Shown: in pieces, positions 3,353 to 54,873 of the stretch | How the letters are laid out: every line of letters starts with the position of its first letter | Numbering within the stretch: position 1 is the first letter of the stretch | Origin: Sulfurimonas sp. | Lineage (GTDB): Bacteria; Campylobacterota; Campylobacteria; Campylobacterales; Sulfurimonadaceae | DNA length: 64,000 bases | NCBI RefSeq assembly: GCF_028713515.1 | Contig: NZ_JAQTOD010000001.1 | Coordinates: 434,001-498,000 of the forward strand | Reading direction: 5' to 3' | The notes under the pieces: generated by a model | Database searches by the model: none | What the model saw: the letters and a program-made list of their open reading frames with translations, nothing else | Told to the model about the DNA's origin: nothing | Program-made: the position numbers and the translations under genes

Positions 3353-4510
3353 CTAGAATAATCTCAATGATGATTTGTTTTTATTATCTTTTGCACTATC
3401 ATCTTTGTTTTCACCAACAATCACTTTGTCTCCAGCTTTTAAAGCGCCATCTGTTACTTCTGTATATTTTCCATCCGTTATGCCAACAGATATATTGATT
3501 TTTTTAGGTTGAGCATTTTCAAGAATATAAACATGCCTTTTTGTTGCATCTGCTAATCCATTTTGTTTCTTGCCTATTTTTTTATTAGGTACTGGGTCGT
3601 AGCGCAGTGCCGCATTCGAAACAAGCAGTACATTAGTGCGGCGATTTTCAATAACTGTCACATAAGCAGTCATTCCTGGAAATAAAATCTGTTGTGGATT
3701 ATCTACGGAGACGACAATATCATAGGTTACAACATTTGAGGTAATTGTTGCATTTAAACGAATCTGCTTTACAACTCCCTTGAATGTTCTATTTGAAAAA
3801 GCATCAACATTAAAAGTAACATCTTGACCGACTTTGATTTGACCAATATCAGCTTCGGCAAAATTAGCATCAATTTGCATTTTTCGTAAATCTTGAGCTA
3901 TTTTAAAGAGTGTTGGTGTTTGGAAACTAGCAGCTACAGTCTGACCAACATCAATTTGCCTATCCACAACAACACCTGATACTGGCGATTTTATAATAGA
4001 GTAGTTTTTATTGGTAAGATCTCGTTGCATCTGAGCCTTAGCTAAGGCAAGAGAGGCTTCGGCTGATTCTAGTGTCTGTAGAGTGTGTTCATAATCCTGC
4101 CTTGAGATATACTCTTTTTCAAAAAGTTCATGAGAGCGATTTTTGTTTGCTCTTGCTAGTGCAACGCTGGATTGTGCATTTGCAACATTGGCACTACTTT
4201 GAGCAATTTGTGCGTTAAAAAGTGATGGATCAAGGGTTGCCATTACCTCTCCTTTTTTAACATGATCGTTAAAATCAACTTTAAGCTCTTTTACTGTTCC
4301 AGATACTTGTGTGCCAACATTTACAAGAACAACAGGATTGAGTGTTCCATTGGCTGAAGCTGTTTGAAGAACATCTCCTCGCTCAATGCTCTCCTGTTTA
4401 AATCGTTCTTTAATTGGTGCTTTGTATATCATAAACCACCAATATCCAAAGCCACCTAAAATCGTAATTATGACGACTAACATCCACTTTGCCACACTTG
4501 CGTTTTTCAT
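3353..4510 (-). CDS. MacA-like periplasmic adaptor (HlyD/RND membrane fusion family)
   Basis: 385 aa. An N-terminal membrane anchor at about residues 9-28 precedes a barrel-sandwich/lipoyl half-motif (GTQVSGTVKELKVDFNDHVK), a long alpha-helical hairpin rich in Ala, Gln and Ser (about 110-185), the second lipoyl half (IIKSPVSGVVVDRQIDVGQ) and beta-barrel domains. It bridges the inner-membrane permease and the outer-membrane channel. It overlaps the upstream TolC-like gene by 4 bases and lies 3 bases before the ATPase gene, so all four probably form one transcript. The C-terminus is Lys/Asp/Ser-rich and may be flexible. Confidence 0.9.
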   Translation of the reverse strand: MKNASVAKWMLVVIITILGGFGYWWFMIYKAPIKERFKQESIERGDVLQTASANGTLNPVVLVNVGTQVSGTVKELKVDFNDHVKKGEVMATLDPSLFNAQIAQSSANVANAQSSVALARANKNRSHELFEKEYISRQDYEHTLQTLESAEASLALAKAQMQRDLTNKNYSIIKSPVSGVVVDRQIDVGQTVAASFQTPTLFKIAQDLRKMQIDANFAEADIGQIKVGQDVTFNVDAFSNRTFKGVVKQIRLNATITSNVVTYDIVVSVDNPQQILFPGMTAYVTVIENRRTNVLLVSNAALRYDPVPNKKIGKKQNGLADATKRHVYILENAQPKKINISVGITDGKYTEVTDGALKAGDKVIVGENKDDSAKDNKNKSSLRLF

Positions 4511-5874
4511 TGACCTACCTCTTTGTTTAGTTCATTATTCATTAGCTCTTTATCGCCAAGAGCTCTTGCTAAGGCTATTCGCGCTATGGCAAGCAGATAA
4601 AGAGTTGTAACTTTTTGCTGTTTTGCGCTTGATAAGAGTGCCTGTGAAGATACAACATCTAAAATTGTTCCAACTCCAGCTCTGTATCGCCCTAGAGAAA
4701 CATCATAAGATGCGCTAGCACTCACAACTAAGTCATCGGTTAGTGCTTCTTGATTGCTTGCAGTAAGCAGATTTGTGTAAGCAGTATAAACATCCAGCGT
4801 AACTTGTTTTTCAAGTGATTTAGCTAATGCTTCTTTGATACCTTTTTGTTCTTTTGCCTCAGCAATTTTGTATGTTGTGGCATATCCTGTGAAAATTGGA
4901 AAAGAGAGATTAACGCCTATATTTGAGCTTGTTGTTGATGTAGAAGCTGATGTATCCATAGCATTTACTGATGAAGCTAGTGAAATGGTTGGCATCGCGG
5001 AAGTTTTGGCGGCGATGATTGCAGCATCTGCTGTTTTAATATCCGACCGAGCAGCAACCAAATCAGGACGCATTTCTTTGGCTTTACTTACTAAATCGTT
5101 AAGTCTATTTTCTGGAATAGGACTGTTTTTACTATTTTGAGGCGGTAAAACAGCAAGAGAAGTTTGAGCATCTAACCCTAAAGCAGCTGCAAAATTTCCT
5201 TTAGCAAGAGCAAGCGTACCTTCTGCACCAACGCGAGTTAAAATGCTCTGTGCGTAAGAGGCACGGGCCTGAAGCCTATCTGCTGGAACAGCTATGCCAG
5301 CTTTTACTTTAGTTTGCACAGCATCTAAGCTCTCTTTAGCAGCATTTTCAGCGCTTATATACGCTTCTAGTGATGCTTGTGCAGCAAAGAGATTGTAGTA
5401 TGACTGCACGGTTGTAAAAAAAACAGATTGAACTGCACTCTCATAGCTGTTTTTAGATGAGAGCATAGCTGATGTGGCTTGATTATGAAGTGCGTCACGA
5501 TTTCCAAAATCATATAAAAGATAGTTAAATACCACATTTCCATTCAGCTTAGAGTAGTTTGGCGAGCCAACAGATTTGCCACTATCGTGATTTTCTGAAG
5601 TGGCAATGTTTGCTGTTAGGGTAGGGTAATAATTTGTATTAGAAGTCCCAACTAGTGCAGACTGATAACGGACATTTGCCCAAGCAACATGAGTTTGAGG
5701 GTTAGCACATAGTGCCTGTGCTACGGCATCGGCGAGTTTAATTGGTTGGCTTAAGTCCAAGACAGAGCAACCGTTTGGATTTTGTCCCTCTAGGACACTA
5801 AAAGGATCGCTGTCTGCTAATGTTTTGGAGATTAAAAAAACAACTAACAGCCAAATTTTTAGATATTGCGCCAA
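4507..5874 (-). CDS. TolC-family outer membrane efflux protein
   Basis: 455 aa with an N-terminal signal peptide (about 1-20, ending LADSDP). Two repeated OEP halves are rich in Ala, Gln and Ser, as in TolC. The second half has the family motif SLGRYRAGVGTILDVVSSQALL near residue 395. It would form the trimeric outer-membrane channel for the MacAB-like pump encoded downstream. As the first gene of the operon it is followed by the adaptor with a 4-base overlap. The short intergenic region at 5875-5945 should hold the promoter; I cannot define boxes with confidence. Confidence 0.9.
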   Translation of the reverse strand: MAQYLKIWLLVVFLISKTLADSDPFSVLEGQNPNGCSVLDLSQPIKLADAVAQALCANPQTHVAWANVRYQSALVGTSNTNYYPTLTANIATSENHDSGKSVGSPNYSKLNGNVVFNYLLYDFGNRDALHNQATSAMLSSKNSYESAVQSVFFTTVQSYYNLFAAQASLEAYISAENAAKESLDAVQTKVKAGIAVPADRLQARASYAQSILTRVGAEGTLALAKGNFAAALGLDAQTSLAVLPPQNSKNSPIPENRLNDLVSKAKEMRPDLVAARSDIKTADAAIIAAKTSAMPTISLASSVNAMDTSASTSTTSSNIGVNLSFPIFTGYATTYKIAEAKEQKGIKEALAKSLEKQVTLDVYTAYTNLLTASNQEALTDDLVVSASASYDVSLGRYRAGVGTILDVVSSQALLSSAKQQKVTTLYLLAIARIALARALGDKELMNNELNKEVGQ

Positions 5875-50678: not shown

Positions 50679-50715
50679 AAAAACCCTCTTTGCAAAAATA
50701 GCAAAGAGGGTTTTT
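50679..50715. terminator. Strong bidirectional terminator after metE
   Basis: AAAAACCCTCTTTGC (50679-50693), loop AAAAATA, GCAAAGAGGGTTTTT (50701-50715): a perfect 15-bp stem with A/T runs on both sides, between convergent metE and the lpxA-like gene. Confidence 0.93.
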
Positions 50716-50717
50716 AT

Positions 50718-51467
50718 CTATTCTAGGTTGCTAGAGATAATAAAAGAAGTTAGTTGTTTAATATACTCGTTTTGATGTGTTTTTAAGATCTCTTGTGCCA
50801 TAACTTTATCAACGCCATCGCCTAAAACTCTTTTATAAATCGCTTTAATCTCTTCTATATCATCTTTGTTTTCCACTCTTCGTCTAAGACCAATAATATT
50901 TAGCCCTTTTATAGTAGCTTTGTTTCCCTCAACTAGCACAAAAGGTGGTATATCGGTGGTTACAACGGATGCACCACCTATCATAACTCCTGTGCCGATT
51001 GTGTTATTTGCTTCGATGATACTAAGTCCACCAACTATAACTTTCTCGTGGCATTTAACATTTTCTAGTAGTCTAACAGCATTTGTGATAATACAAAAAT
51101 CCCCAAGTTCTACGCCACTAGATAACTGAACATATCCCATCAAAAAGTTGTTTGAACCAATGATAATTTTTCTGTTTTCTCCATCTTCGCTCTCTTGTGA
51201 ACCTATCTGAGTAAACTCTCTGATATGTGTTTTTGTACCAATCTCTATCTCTGAGTTATCATTTCCAATAATTGCAAAACTAAATATCTTGACATCTTCA
51301 TCAATTCTGATTTTACCTTTTAAGATTATGTTTGCCTCTAGCGTACATCCTGATTTTATCTCTACGCCTTTTCCAATAGAACAAAATGGACCTATAACAA
51401 CATCTGGTGCTATTTTTGCACCATCTTCTATGGTAACAGAACTATGAATATTTTGGTTGTTTATCAT
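50718..51467 (-). CDS. LpxA-like acyltransferase lacking the catalytic histidine
   Basis: 249 aa. Left-handed beta-helix with hexapeptide repeats (about 1-185) and the helical LpxA C-terminus (EGNKATIKGLNIIGLRRR near 180-198). LpxA places the first acyl chain on UDP-GlcNAc in lipid A. The active site HIAHD of LpxA aligns here with QLSSG (114-118): the catalytic His125 (E. coli numbering) is Ser117. It is encoded with gnnA, gnnB and lpxB, so a lipid A role is still expected; it may be a changed or inactive enzyme, or one with another catalytic residue. A normal lpxA may exist outside the window. Confidence 0.8.
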   Translation of the reverse strand: MINNQNIHSSVTIEDGAKIAPDVVIGPFCSIGKGVEIKSGCTLEANIILKGKIRIDEDVKIFSFAIIGNDNSEIEIGTKTHIREFTQIGSQESEDGENRKIIIGSNNFLMGYVQLSSGVELGDFCIITNAVRLLENVKCHEKVIVGGLSIIEANNTIGTGVMIGGASVVTTDIPPFVLVEGNKATIKGLNIIGLRRRVENKDDIEEIKAIYKRVLGDGVDKVMAQEILKTHQNEYIKQLTSFIISSNLE

Positions 51468-52375
51468 TATTTACTCGCAATCTCTAAAGTTACTATACTA
51501 TCTTCGATGGACGCCAAAGAGCCTCTCTCGCCACCGTTTATGTAAGTTATAAAGGCTTTTAATTCAGACTCTAGCGCATTGCTTCTTTGAACAAAACAGT
51601 TTTTTGTTATGTGTGAAGATGGGTTAATATTGACCCTCTCATCTAGGGTTTGTGAGATTAAATCTGCTTCAAAATATTTGATTTTACTAAACTCATCCAC
51701 TCTACAAGCTACTGCAATGCTTCTTTTTCTATAAGGTGTGAGCCAGTTTGTAGTAATATCTCCAATAATATTTCCCTCAAGCTCAAATGCCAAAATAGCA
51801 TTATCCTCATGAGTTTTATGAATCTTTTGAGACTTAAATACAGCACTCTTTAGTATCTCTTTTTTTGTGATAAATCTAATCAAATCGCTATCATGAACAG
51901 ATAAATCTGTAAGTATGCCGACATCTGCAATTCTCTCAGGAAAAGCACCGCTGCGAGTGATTGAGATGGAGAGAATCTCATGATCTTTTATCTCTCGTAT
52001 TAGCGACATAACAACAGGGTTGTATCGTTCAATGTGTCCAACACAGCTTTTTATACCACTCTCTTTTACGGCTAGAAGAATCTCTTTTGCCTCCTCAACA
52101 CTTGAAGCAGCAGGTTTTTCTATAAAGATATCAATTTTACGAGAAGTACATTTAAGCGCTGCATCCTTATGTAAAAAAGTTGGTGTAACTATAATGAGTG
52201 CATCTGGCTTTACCTCATCAAGCATAGTGTCTAAATCAGTGAAAAATGGCTCTTTAAACTCCCCGTTTTTAACAACATCACAAAGTCCGACTATCTGAGC
52301 GCCATCTATATTTTTTAGCGTGTTATAGTGGTTTTTCCCCATTACTCCAAGCCCTGCAATTGCAACTCTTTTCAA
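51467..52375 (-). CDS. gnnA: Gfo/Idh/MocA oxidoreductase, GnnA-like UDP-GlcNAc 3-dehydrogenase
   Basis: 302 aa. N-terminal Rossmann fold [15 protein letters not shown] at 8-22, [11 protein letters not shown] near 85-95 with the catalytic Lys, and the C-terminal beta-sheet domain. In GnnA/WlbA-type enzymes it oxidises the 3-OH of UDP-GlcNAc so that the neighbouring aminotransferase can add an amine. The neighbours (aminotransferase, LpxA-like, LpxB) point to lipid A with amide-linked acyl chains at position 3. A role in a diamino-sugar for O-antigen is the alternative. Confidence 0.85.
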
Positions 52376-52377
52376 AA

Positions 52378-53469
52378 TTAACCTTTAATTGTCTGAACAA
52401 CGAAATCTTGCTCTTCTTTGCTCAAATAAGCGCTCATTGGTAGTGACATAATCTCTTTTGAGACAAGCTCACTCACTGGAAAATCACCCTCTTTATAGCC
52501 CAAATCTTTAAATGCTTCTTGAAGATGAAGCGGAAGCGGGTAGTGAACAGCAGTTGGAACGCCACAAGCACTAAGCTTTGCAATCATCGCCTCTCTATCT
52601 TTTACCCTTACTGAATATTGAGCAAATACGCTTTTGTTTTGGGGTGCGATATTTGGAGTTATTACATCAGAACCCTTTAAAAGATCACTGTATCTTGTTC
52701 CAATCTCATCTCTCAATCTTACTTCTTTGTCAAAATGTTTAAGCTTTACTCCAAGAACTGCCGCTTGAACTGCGTCAAGACGACCGTTTATGCCGATGTA
52801 CTTGTGCTTGTATCTCTCATTCTGACCATGATTTAAAAGCATTCTCATTTTTGAAGCCAGTTCATCATCATTTGTAAAAATCGCCCCGCCATCACCATAA
52901 GCACCAAGCGGTTTTGATGGGAAAAAGCTAGTGCATCCGATGGTTGAGAGATTGCAAGATTTTTTACCATTTTGAGTTGCGCCAAAGCTTTGGCATGCAT
53001 CCTCGATAACTGGGATATTGTGTTTGTCTGCTATGGCGTTGATGGCATCCATATCTGCACATTGACCATAAAGTGAAACAGGAATGATAGCCTTTGTATT
53101 TTTTGTTATTGCACTCTCAATTTTAGTAACATCTATGTTGTAACTAGTCTCGTCAATATCTACAAAAACACTCTTTGCACCCAAAAGCGCGATAACTTCA
53201 GCAGTTGCAATAAAAGTAAAAGGAGTTGTGATAACTTCATCGCCAACGCCAATATCAAGCGCCATTAAAGCAAGAAGAAGCGCATCAGTTCCACTACTGC
53301 AGCCAATCGAATGTTTTGAACCTGTATACTCTGAAAGATTTCTCTCTAGCGAGTTCAGTTTCTCACCACCAATAAATTGTGCAGAGGAAAAAACCTCCAA
53401 AACCTCACTATCTATCTCATCTTTATACTCTTTGTACTGTGCTTGTAAGTCTATAAAATTAATCTTCAT
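52378..53469 (-). CDS. gnnB: DegT/DnrJ/EryC1 aminotransferase, GnnB-like
   Basis: 363 aa PLP enzyme. [14 protein letters not shown] near 58-71, [18 protein letters not shown] with the PLP-aspartate, [20 protein letters not shown] with the catalytic Lys near 185, and [14 protein letters not shown]. It adds an amino group to the 3-keto sugar made by GnnA, giving UDP-GlcNAc3N. The 2-base gap to gnnA and the 11-base overlap with lpxB show one transcription unit. Confidence 0.85.
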
Positions 53470-54514
53470 TTCTATCCTCTATTATTGATGCTACTGTTTT
53501 TGAACTGCCATGTTTTAGATAAGTTCTTAGTGATTTTGAATCATTTAAAAATTTACTTCTATCATACTCATTGAAAGATTTGATAAGATTCTCGAGAGTT
53601 ACATCATCTTGAATAAACTCAGGATGCAAGGCTCTATTTTGAAACTTATCAAACATTATATTGCTAAGTCCTATGTAGTTAAGCTTCACAAGTCTGCTCG
53701 CTATAAAGTAGTCGAGTGATTTAGCTATATAAGTTAGTATAAAAGGTATCCCAATAAGTGATGCTTCAAGTGTAGCCGTTCCGCTACAAATAAACGCAAA
53801 ATCAGCTTCATAAAGCGTTTTGTGTGCATCATGGGCTATTTTAAAACCCGAAATATTACCATATAGTTCTTTTATTTCTTCTTCTAAAAAGTGCTTTGGT
53901 ATGATGATTGTTGCTTTGACATTTAGTTTTTTTTGAAGCTCTATAAAAATTGGCATTAATTTTCTAATTTCACCCTTTCTGCTCCCTGGCATAAAAGCAA
54001 TATGCTCTATTTTAGGGCTTAAATGTTCTTTAAAATTTGTAATTTGATCAAGAAGAGGATGTCCAACATAAGTTATGGGTGCAGTTTTTGAGTAGTAATC
54101 TTTCTCAAAAGGTAAAATTGAAGCAAGATGGTCTATGGTTTTTTCTAGAACTGAAATCCGCCCGCTCTTCCAAGCCCAAGCTTGAGGTAAAATGTAGTAA
54201 ATTATCTCTTTGTCTGGATACTTTTTCTTGATTTTTTTGGCAAGGGGAAGGTTAAAACCAGATGAGTCTATAAGCAGAACTTTATCTACATCTTTTGCTA
54301 AATCAACCATTTTGTTGTTTAATTTTATGAAAAATAGTAATTTTTTTATAGCATCAACGAATCCCATGATCGCTAAACTTCTTAGATCAACTATGCTCTC
54401 GCCAAGCTCTTTATCAAAGATGCCAATAAACTCCACATCATCACTTAACTCTTTTTTTAAAGATTTAAGATGCAGATTTGCAGAGTGCTCTAATGCACTA
54501 ACAAGTATCTTCAT
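53459..54514 (-). CDS. lpxB: Lipid-A-disaccharide synthase
   Basis: 351 aa GT19 family. SALEHSANLHLKSL at the start, PQAWAWKSGR near 118-127, AFMPGSRKGEIRKLMPIF near 188-205 and ICSGTATLEASLIGIP near 255-270. It joins UDP-diacylglucosamine and lipid X into the lipid A disaccharide. Its stop lies within the start of gnnB and its start overlaps the cytochrome gene's stop by 4 bases. Confidence 0.94.
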   Translation of the reverse strand: MKILVSALEHSANLHLKSLKKELSDDVEFIGIFDKELGESIVDLRSLAIMGFVDAIKKLLFFIKLNNKMVDLAKDVDKVLLIDSSGFNLPLAKKIKKKYPDKEIIYYILPQAWAWKSGRISVLEKTIDHLASILPFEKDYYSKTAPITYVGHPLLDQITNFKEHLSPKIEHIAFMPGSRKGEIRKLMPIFIELQKKLNVKATIIIPKHFLEEEIKELYGNISGFKIAHDAHKTLYEADFAFICSGTATLEASLIGIPFILTYIAKSLDYFIASRLVKLNYIGLSNIMFDKFQNRALHPEFIQDDVTLENLIKSFNEYDRSKFLNDSKSLRTYLKHGSSKTVASIIEDRNED

Positions 54515-54873
54515 GAACCACCATCTCCACTTCTTATAAAACTGTCGTTATACTTTTTACTAATTTTTTTCTCTTTAAAATCACGCATAAATGTTGTTAG
54601 ATTATCTATGTCTTTGTTGCTTAAATTAACAGCAAAAGGAACCATCATCTCCTGTTGCTGATTGTCAGATTTTTTAGAGCGAAATCTCTTTAGTTTATAT
54701 GTCATATATTTTTTGTCACGATTAGCTAAAGCTGGATACTCATTTAGCCCTTCAGCTCTGTTGCCATGGCATCCGTTACACCCTTTTTGCATATATGCAG
54801 CTTTGCCATCATCATAGGATTGATTCGCATTAACAGATAAAAAGAATAGGAATAACAAAACAAAAAAACGCAA
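54511..54873 (-). CDS. Small periplasmic cytochrome c
   Basis: 120 aa. Signal peptide 1-16 (VLLFLFFLSVNA); heme site GCNGCHGN near 32-39; candidate axial Met in EMMVPFA near 83; class I pattern with C-terminal helix LTTFMRDFKEKK. A single-heme c-type electron carrier. First gene of the leftward run into lpxB. Partner unknown. Confidence 0.9.
   Translation of the reverse strand: MRFFVLLFLFFLSVNANQSYDDGKAAYMQKGCNGCHGNRAEGLNEYPALANRDKKYMTYKLKRFRSKKSDNQQQEMMVPFAVNLSNKDIDNLTTFMRDFKEKKISKKYNDSFIRSGDGGS

Follow-up and report, generated by a model that had tools for sequence, protein, structure and literature searches.

The accepted view of LpxA, a target for antibiotics, is that of a homotrimer whose three sites are identical. 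LpxAs of the UDP-GlcNAc3N type include those of C. jejuni, L. interrogans, and A. ferrooxidans. Among 3-amino-sugar acyltransferases, WlbB/WbpD act after a pair of enzymes of the Gfo/Idh/MocA and DegT types. The pocket of LpxA is built by two neighboring subunits, with R204, R205, G201, N198, M170, I152, I134, L116, and M118 on the uridine side, and Q73-K76, H122, H125, D126, G143, H144, Q161, and F162 on the GlcNAc/catalytic side (PMC7072397, PMC6286764). A third study groups the acyl-channel residues G155 and G173 with M170, and R258 with Q161 (PMC6408518); it also puts the side chain of Q161 on the same chain as R204, contrary to PMC7072397 and PMC6286764.

Here, we describe an LpxA paralog, named lpxA2, encoded in a stretch of 64,000 nucleotides from Sulfurimonas sp. 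(the window; positions 434,001 to 498,000 of contig NZ_JAQTOD010000001.1). The following features surround or belong to this gene:

50679..50715, no strand: terminator-like perfect inverted repeat, flanked by A/T, in the gap separating the convergent lpxA2 and metE (read from the sequence)
50718..51467, minus strand: lpxA2, LpxA paralog of 249 aa (open reading frame, alignment, and fold match to LpxA)
50877..50906, minus strand: GLNIIGLRRR, residues 188-197, with the equivalents of the uridine/phosphate-binding N198, R204, and R205 (alignment)
51114..51128, minus strand: QLSSG, residues 114-118, where E. coli LpxA has HIAHD at residues 122-126 (alignment)
51467..52375, minus strand: gnnA, homolog of the Gfo/Idh/MocA UDP-GlcNAc 3-dehydrogenase
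52378..53469, minus strand: gnnB, homolog of DegT/DnrJ/EryC1 aminotransferases
53459..54514, minus strand: lpxB, lipid A disaccharide synthase (exceeds the TIGR00215 cut-off)
54511..54873, minus strand: small cytochrome c-like gene (CxxCH), first of the cluster

lpxA2 is the last gene of a gnnAB cluster

The genes are arranged in the order cytc-lpxB-gnnB-gnnA-lpxA2, which bears out a preliminary description that had placed an LpxA homolog beside gnnA, gnnB, and lpxB. The open reading frame was likewise found to occupy exactly 50718-51467; it lies on the minus strand, the plus strand of this segment being full of stops. The stop codon of gnnA and the start codon of lpxA2 overlap by one base (TAATG). 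In the window, gnnA itself starts with TTG, and the cytochrome c-like gene, whose place is kept in most relatives, overlaps the start of lpxB by 4 bases. Between genera, GnnA has diverged far more than GnnB (58% and 76% identity, respectively, for genomes G010 and G000).

A second, intact lpxA is present in the same genome, between fabZ and clpX, where the preliminary description had suggested looking for one; its alternative, that lpxA2 might be the only lpxA of the genome, is thereby ruled out. The product of this second gene is 39% identical to that of lpxA2 and contains HIGHD as well as the other residues of the catalytic face. LpxC and LpxD are encoded in the genome as well. In every lpxA2-containing genome whose canonical LpxA was read, the canonical LpxA was intact.

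The lpxA2 product has an LpxA fold

Pfam detected Hexapep repeats and the LpxA C-terminal domain Acetyltransf_11 (PF13720, 5.7e-16) in the lpxA2 product, and its best sequence matches in the PDB are LpxAs. NCBIfam models for LpxA matched it at about 4e-55, with scores that miss the equivalog cut-offs of TIGR01852 and NF003657 (183.3 vs 231.05 and 186.6 vs 226 bits, respectively). An AlphaFold model built from 17 relatives (pLDDT 78) was used for a fold search, in which LpxA structures occupied the top 30 ranks; the TM-score to LpxA 6oss was 0.83. Judging from the PF13720 match and the predicted model, the protein has both the left-handed β-helix and the C-terminal helical domain. N-acetyltransferases of 3-amino sugars gave far weaker fold matches (TM-scores of 0.31 for 8e62 and 0.26 for QdtC, 3fs8). 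Assignment to the WlbB/QdtC type by best match was rejected, as LpxA structures rank at the top and QdtC and Pcryo_0615 far below. Filing the protein as LpxA is inadvisable; a safer label would be “LpxA-like half-site protein of the gnnAB cluster”.

The catalytic face of the pocket is lost and the uridine face is kept

For a comparison by residue, 33 usable paralogs were set against 53 canonical LpxA sequences. Alignments with the LpxAs of E. coli and of the genome itself both confirmed that HIAHD is replaced by QLSSG, so that S117 and G118 stand in the place of the catalytic dyad H125/D126. Histidine is found at position 125 in none of the 33 paralogs and in all 53 canonical rows; in the paralogs, the position is taken by S, P, N, G, F, D, or T, and none of the orthologs, which were detected in about 34 genomes, retains the histidine. 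A search across the paralog alignment for an invariant histidine that could act as a replacement base in the pocket found none. The general base is thus lost, as had been claimed, and the possibility raised at the same time, that another conserved histidine fills the same pocket, is ruled out by the absence of an invariant histidine and the free variation at position 125.

The loss extends well beyond the dyad. The GlcNAc-binding loop Q73-D74-L75-K76 is deleted in 33/33 paralogs, and H122, G143, H144, H160, Q161, F162, and R258 are gone from the lpxA2 product as well. The tail that carries R258 (TKRG in canonical LpxA) is absent from all paralogs. The C-terminus, described earlier as well kept, is therefore kept only in part: the helical domain with its GLNxxGLRRR motif is retained, and the R258 tail is missing.

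On the uridine side, the residues equivalent to N198, R204, and R205, whose roles we take from PMC6286764 and PMC7072397, are invariant among the paralogs. N190 and R196 correspond to N198 and R204; at the position of R205, a uracil contact, all 33 paralogs have arginine, whereas canonical LpxAs from this family (f1) mostly have H or N. Counting all substitutions, nearly every one of these canonical LpxAs has another residue in place of R205 (H, N, K, Q, or G; e.g., L059 5523-6308). The paralogs keep 8/9 of the canonically conserved residues that belong to the uridine/acyl face, compared with 0/12 of those that belong to the GlcNAc/catalytic face (Fisher p 4e-5). The rows of the β-helix follow the same division: most rows on the uridine side show stronger conservation in the paralogs than in canonical LpxA, while entropy in the catalytic rows (125/143/161 and 126/144/162) rises from 0 in canonical LpxA to 1.8 and 0.95, respectively. 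What remains of the sugar face varies among orthologs at the background rate.

The loss of all catalytic residues could be taken as a sign that lpxA2 is a decaying gene without function. This reading is highly improbable, as it is contradicted by dN/dS values of 0.04-0.13 for close lpxA2 pairs, a frame that is open in relatives, a fixed place in the operon, and 46 invariant columns in the paralog alignment. The dN/dS values are those of purifying selection, so the bacteria that carry the protein benefit from it, and together with the missing histidine in all orthologs they rule out a chance observation.

Retention of the uridine face would also be expected of a homotrimer with some other mode of UDP-sugar binding, and some of the kept residues (Gly, Met, and Ile) may be structural. 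A non-catalytic homotrimer could bind UDP-sugar and/or acyl-ACP and regulate or scaffold the pathway, for instance by holding GnnA and GnnB and handing UDP-GlcNAc3N to LpxA. A uridine face kept without a catalytic one, and the position of lpxA2 at the end of the gnnB-gnnA operon with its one-base overlap, fit this idea. Against it, the sequence gives no sign of contacts with GnnA or GnnB, and we know of no precedent for an LpxA that acts as a scaffold; we consider it unlikely.

lpxA2 occurs together with gnnA

The family sample comprised 61 genomes, the named relatives being Sulfurimonas and other Campylobacterales MAGs. The paralog was found in 19/61 genomes and a close gnnA in 21/61, with lpxA2 present in 19/21 gnnA-containing genomes and in 0/40 of those without gnnA (19 with both, 2 with gnnA only, 0 with lpxA2 only, and 40 with neither; Fisher p 7e-14, treating genomes as independent although they are related). 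The pattern of presence and absence within a single genus (g1) argues for a true link between lpxA2 and gnnA despite this kinship. Of the 2 genomes with gnnA only, G056 has its gnnA cut at base 2 by the end of a contig, just where lpxA2 should come, and G050 is a divergent MAG with gnnAB, a single canonical LpxA, and no lpxA2. The idea that G050 had swapped its LpxA was rejected, as its fabZ, clpX, and lpxB are divergent too and the MAG is simply distant. The order lpxB-gnnB-gnnA-lpxA2 is retained in nearly all genomes with the paralog. One genome has two copies of lpxB, of which one adjoins gnnB and one lies elsewhere (G013:C70, G013:C91).

A sample of 397 Campylobacterota genomes separated the paralogs (at least 345 bits) from all other sequences (at most 252 bits). 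The 23 genomes with a paralog in this sample coincide exactly with the 23 gnnA-containing members of the family, and among the sampled Campylobacterota the paralog is confined to the family of the window. Another 34 genomes, all from other families, have gnnA without the paralog; in the 20 of these that were checked, LpxA is single in 19 and the histidine is kept in all. As these genomes and G050 have gnnAB with a single canonical LpxA, gnnAB does not in general require the lpxA2 product as a partner.

The strict link between lpxA2 and gnnA/gnnB also speaks for the main rival explanation, in which the lpxA2 product is an active homotrimeric N-acyltransferase of UDP-GlcNAc3N that works without a base. 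The 3-amine would be a better nucleophile than the hydroxyl, and canonical LpxA would still O-acylate UDP-GlcNAc, resulting in a lipid A with mixed ester and amide linkages. The 3-amino-sugar N-acetyltransferases WlbB and QdtC reportedly work without a protein base. Capnocytophaga canimorsus, with two lpxA genes and gnnA/gnnB, has a hybrid GlcN3N-GlcN backbone (PMC3342949), and G184, a genome from a different family, encodes an additional LpxA between lpxB and gnnB that carries the changes D74S and K76G, although there the histidine is kept. Against this explanation, the histidine is retained by C. jejuni LpxA (3r0s) and by the single LpxAs of gnnAB genomes. C. jejuni LpxA prefers UDP-GlcNAc3N. 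Moreover, the histidine is not all that is missing: the paralog lacks the GlcNAc-binding loop together with H144, Q161, and the R258 tail, and its remaining sugar-face positions drift between orthologs at the background rate. The proposal of new chemistry for UDP-GlcNAc3N, made in the preliminary description, therefore holds as far as the link to gnnA/gnnB is concerned and is weakened by a sugar pocket that is deleted or variable; we regard it as possible but doubtful.

Second LpxAs beside gnnAB in Campylobacterota

The paralogs group as a single deep clade (support 100/100) at the end of a long branch, in a tree whose long branches make the root of this clade unsure. An origin as a recent copy of the family’s own canonical LpxA is not supported by this placement. 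In G184, the genes are ordered lpxB - lpxA(b) - gnnB - gnnA - fabZ - lpxA(a) - clpX. Both LpxAs of this genome bear the histidine, and in lpxAb, QSLG replaces QDLK (L132, G184:C1:1143000-1156000, 4276-5097). This parallel suggests that a second LpxA beside gnnAB was recruited more than once, or that the paralog passed through such a stage.

Changes at K76 were seen more widely. Canonical LpxAs of gnnAB genomes from families f3 and f10 have S or G at this position (L159-L161, L165-L169), C. jejuni LpxA 3r0s is likewise changed, and a Gly is listed there for L. interrogans (PMC7072397). As a general marker of LpxAs from gnnAB genomes, the change was rejected, since K is found in other families and in all lpxA2-containing genomes that were read.

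A possible half-site partner of LpxA

A pocket with one face kept and the other freed is what would be predicted for a protein that functions only next to a partner contributing the missing half. We therefore put forward, tentatively, that the lpxA2 product is a catalytically dead pseudo-subunit with half a site, which would join intact LpxA in the UDP-GlcNAc3N branch. The protein would supply only the uridine/acyl-channel face, and its neighbor would have to bring the catalytic face. The candidate partner is the LpxA of fabZ-lpxA-clpX, with which it would form heterotrimers; in these, a hybrid site made of the uridine face of the paralog and the canonical H125 face may serve or tune the acylation of UDP-GlcNAc3N. 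This acceptor, the predicted product of the adjacent gnnA/gnnB, is taken as the relevant one because of the strict link of lpxA2 to these genes. An inactive partner was among the options of the preliminary description, and it is the best supported of them, given that the pocket has kept a single face out of two. In these analyses, a regulator of LpxA, another of those options, looks the same as a partner subunit. By generalization, the first acyltransferase of lipid A in some bacteria might be a heterotrimer of LpxA and a pseudo-subunit, whose hybrid sites direct acylation to UDP-GlcNAc3N, although this broader claim is the more doubtful one.

A constrained relative of LpxA without a catalytic face would mean either that pseudo-subunits change sugar specificity in the lipid A pathway, or that the 3-amine can be acylated with no need for the histidine dyad. 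Either reading is relevant to the way in which bacteria change from ester to amide linkages in lipid A and back. Our literature search for a lipid A structure from Sulfurimonas found no paper.

Comparison with known systems

Compared with LpxA (EC 2.3.1.129, UDP-GlcNAc 3-O-acyltransferase), the lpxA2 product shares the β-helix, the helical C-terminal domain, the setting among lipid A genes, and the uridine face (N198/R204/R205/M170/M118/G155/G173). It differs in lacking H125/D126, the Q73-K76 loop, H122, H144, H160, Q161, and the R258 tail, in scoring below the equivalog cut-off, and in occurring beside a second, intact LpxA in the same genome. QdtC, WlbB/WbpD, and Pcryo_0615 are likewise β-helix acyltransferases that act on 3-amino nucleotide sugars, but they have no LpxA C-terminal domain and match the fold far more weakly. 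In gene content, C. canimorsus is similar in that two LpxA-like genes occur in an organism with gnnAB; its lpxA', however, is located with lpxA, lpxC, and lpxD and not beside gnnAB (PMC3342949).

A parallel for the proposed half-site subunit comes from another enzyme and another kingdom. In plant mitochondrial complex I, the γ-carbonic-anhydrase-like subunit CAL2 has lost two of three metal-binding histidines, the sites lie between subunits, and a heterotrimer with better-preserved homologs has been solved (PMC7447434). CAL1/CAL2 thus resemble the present case in belonging to a left-handed β-helix trimer with inter-subunit sites and a subunit without its catalytic residues (PMC7447434). The heterotrimer is shown there, whereas we infer it for lpxA2. 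As with CAL1/CAL2, the subunit without catalytic residues coexists with an intact homolog, here the LpxA encoded in fabZ-lpxA-clpX.
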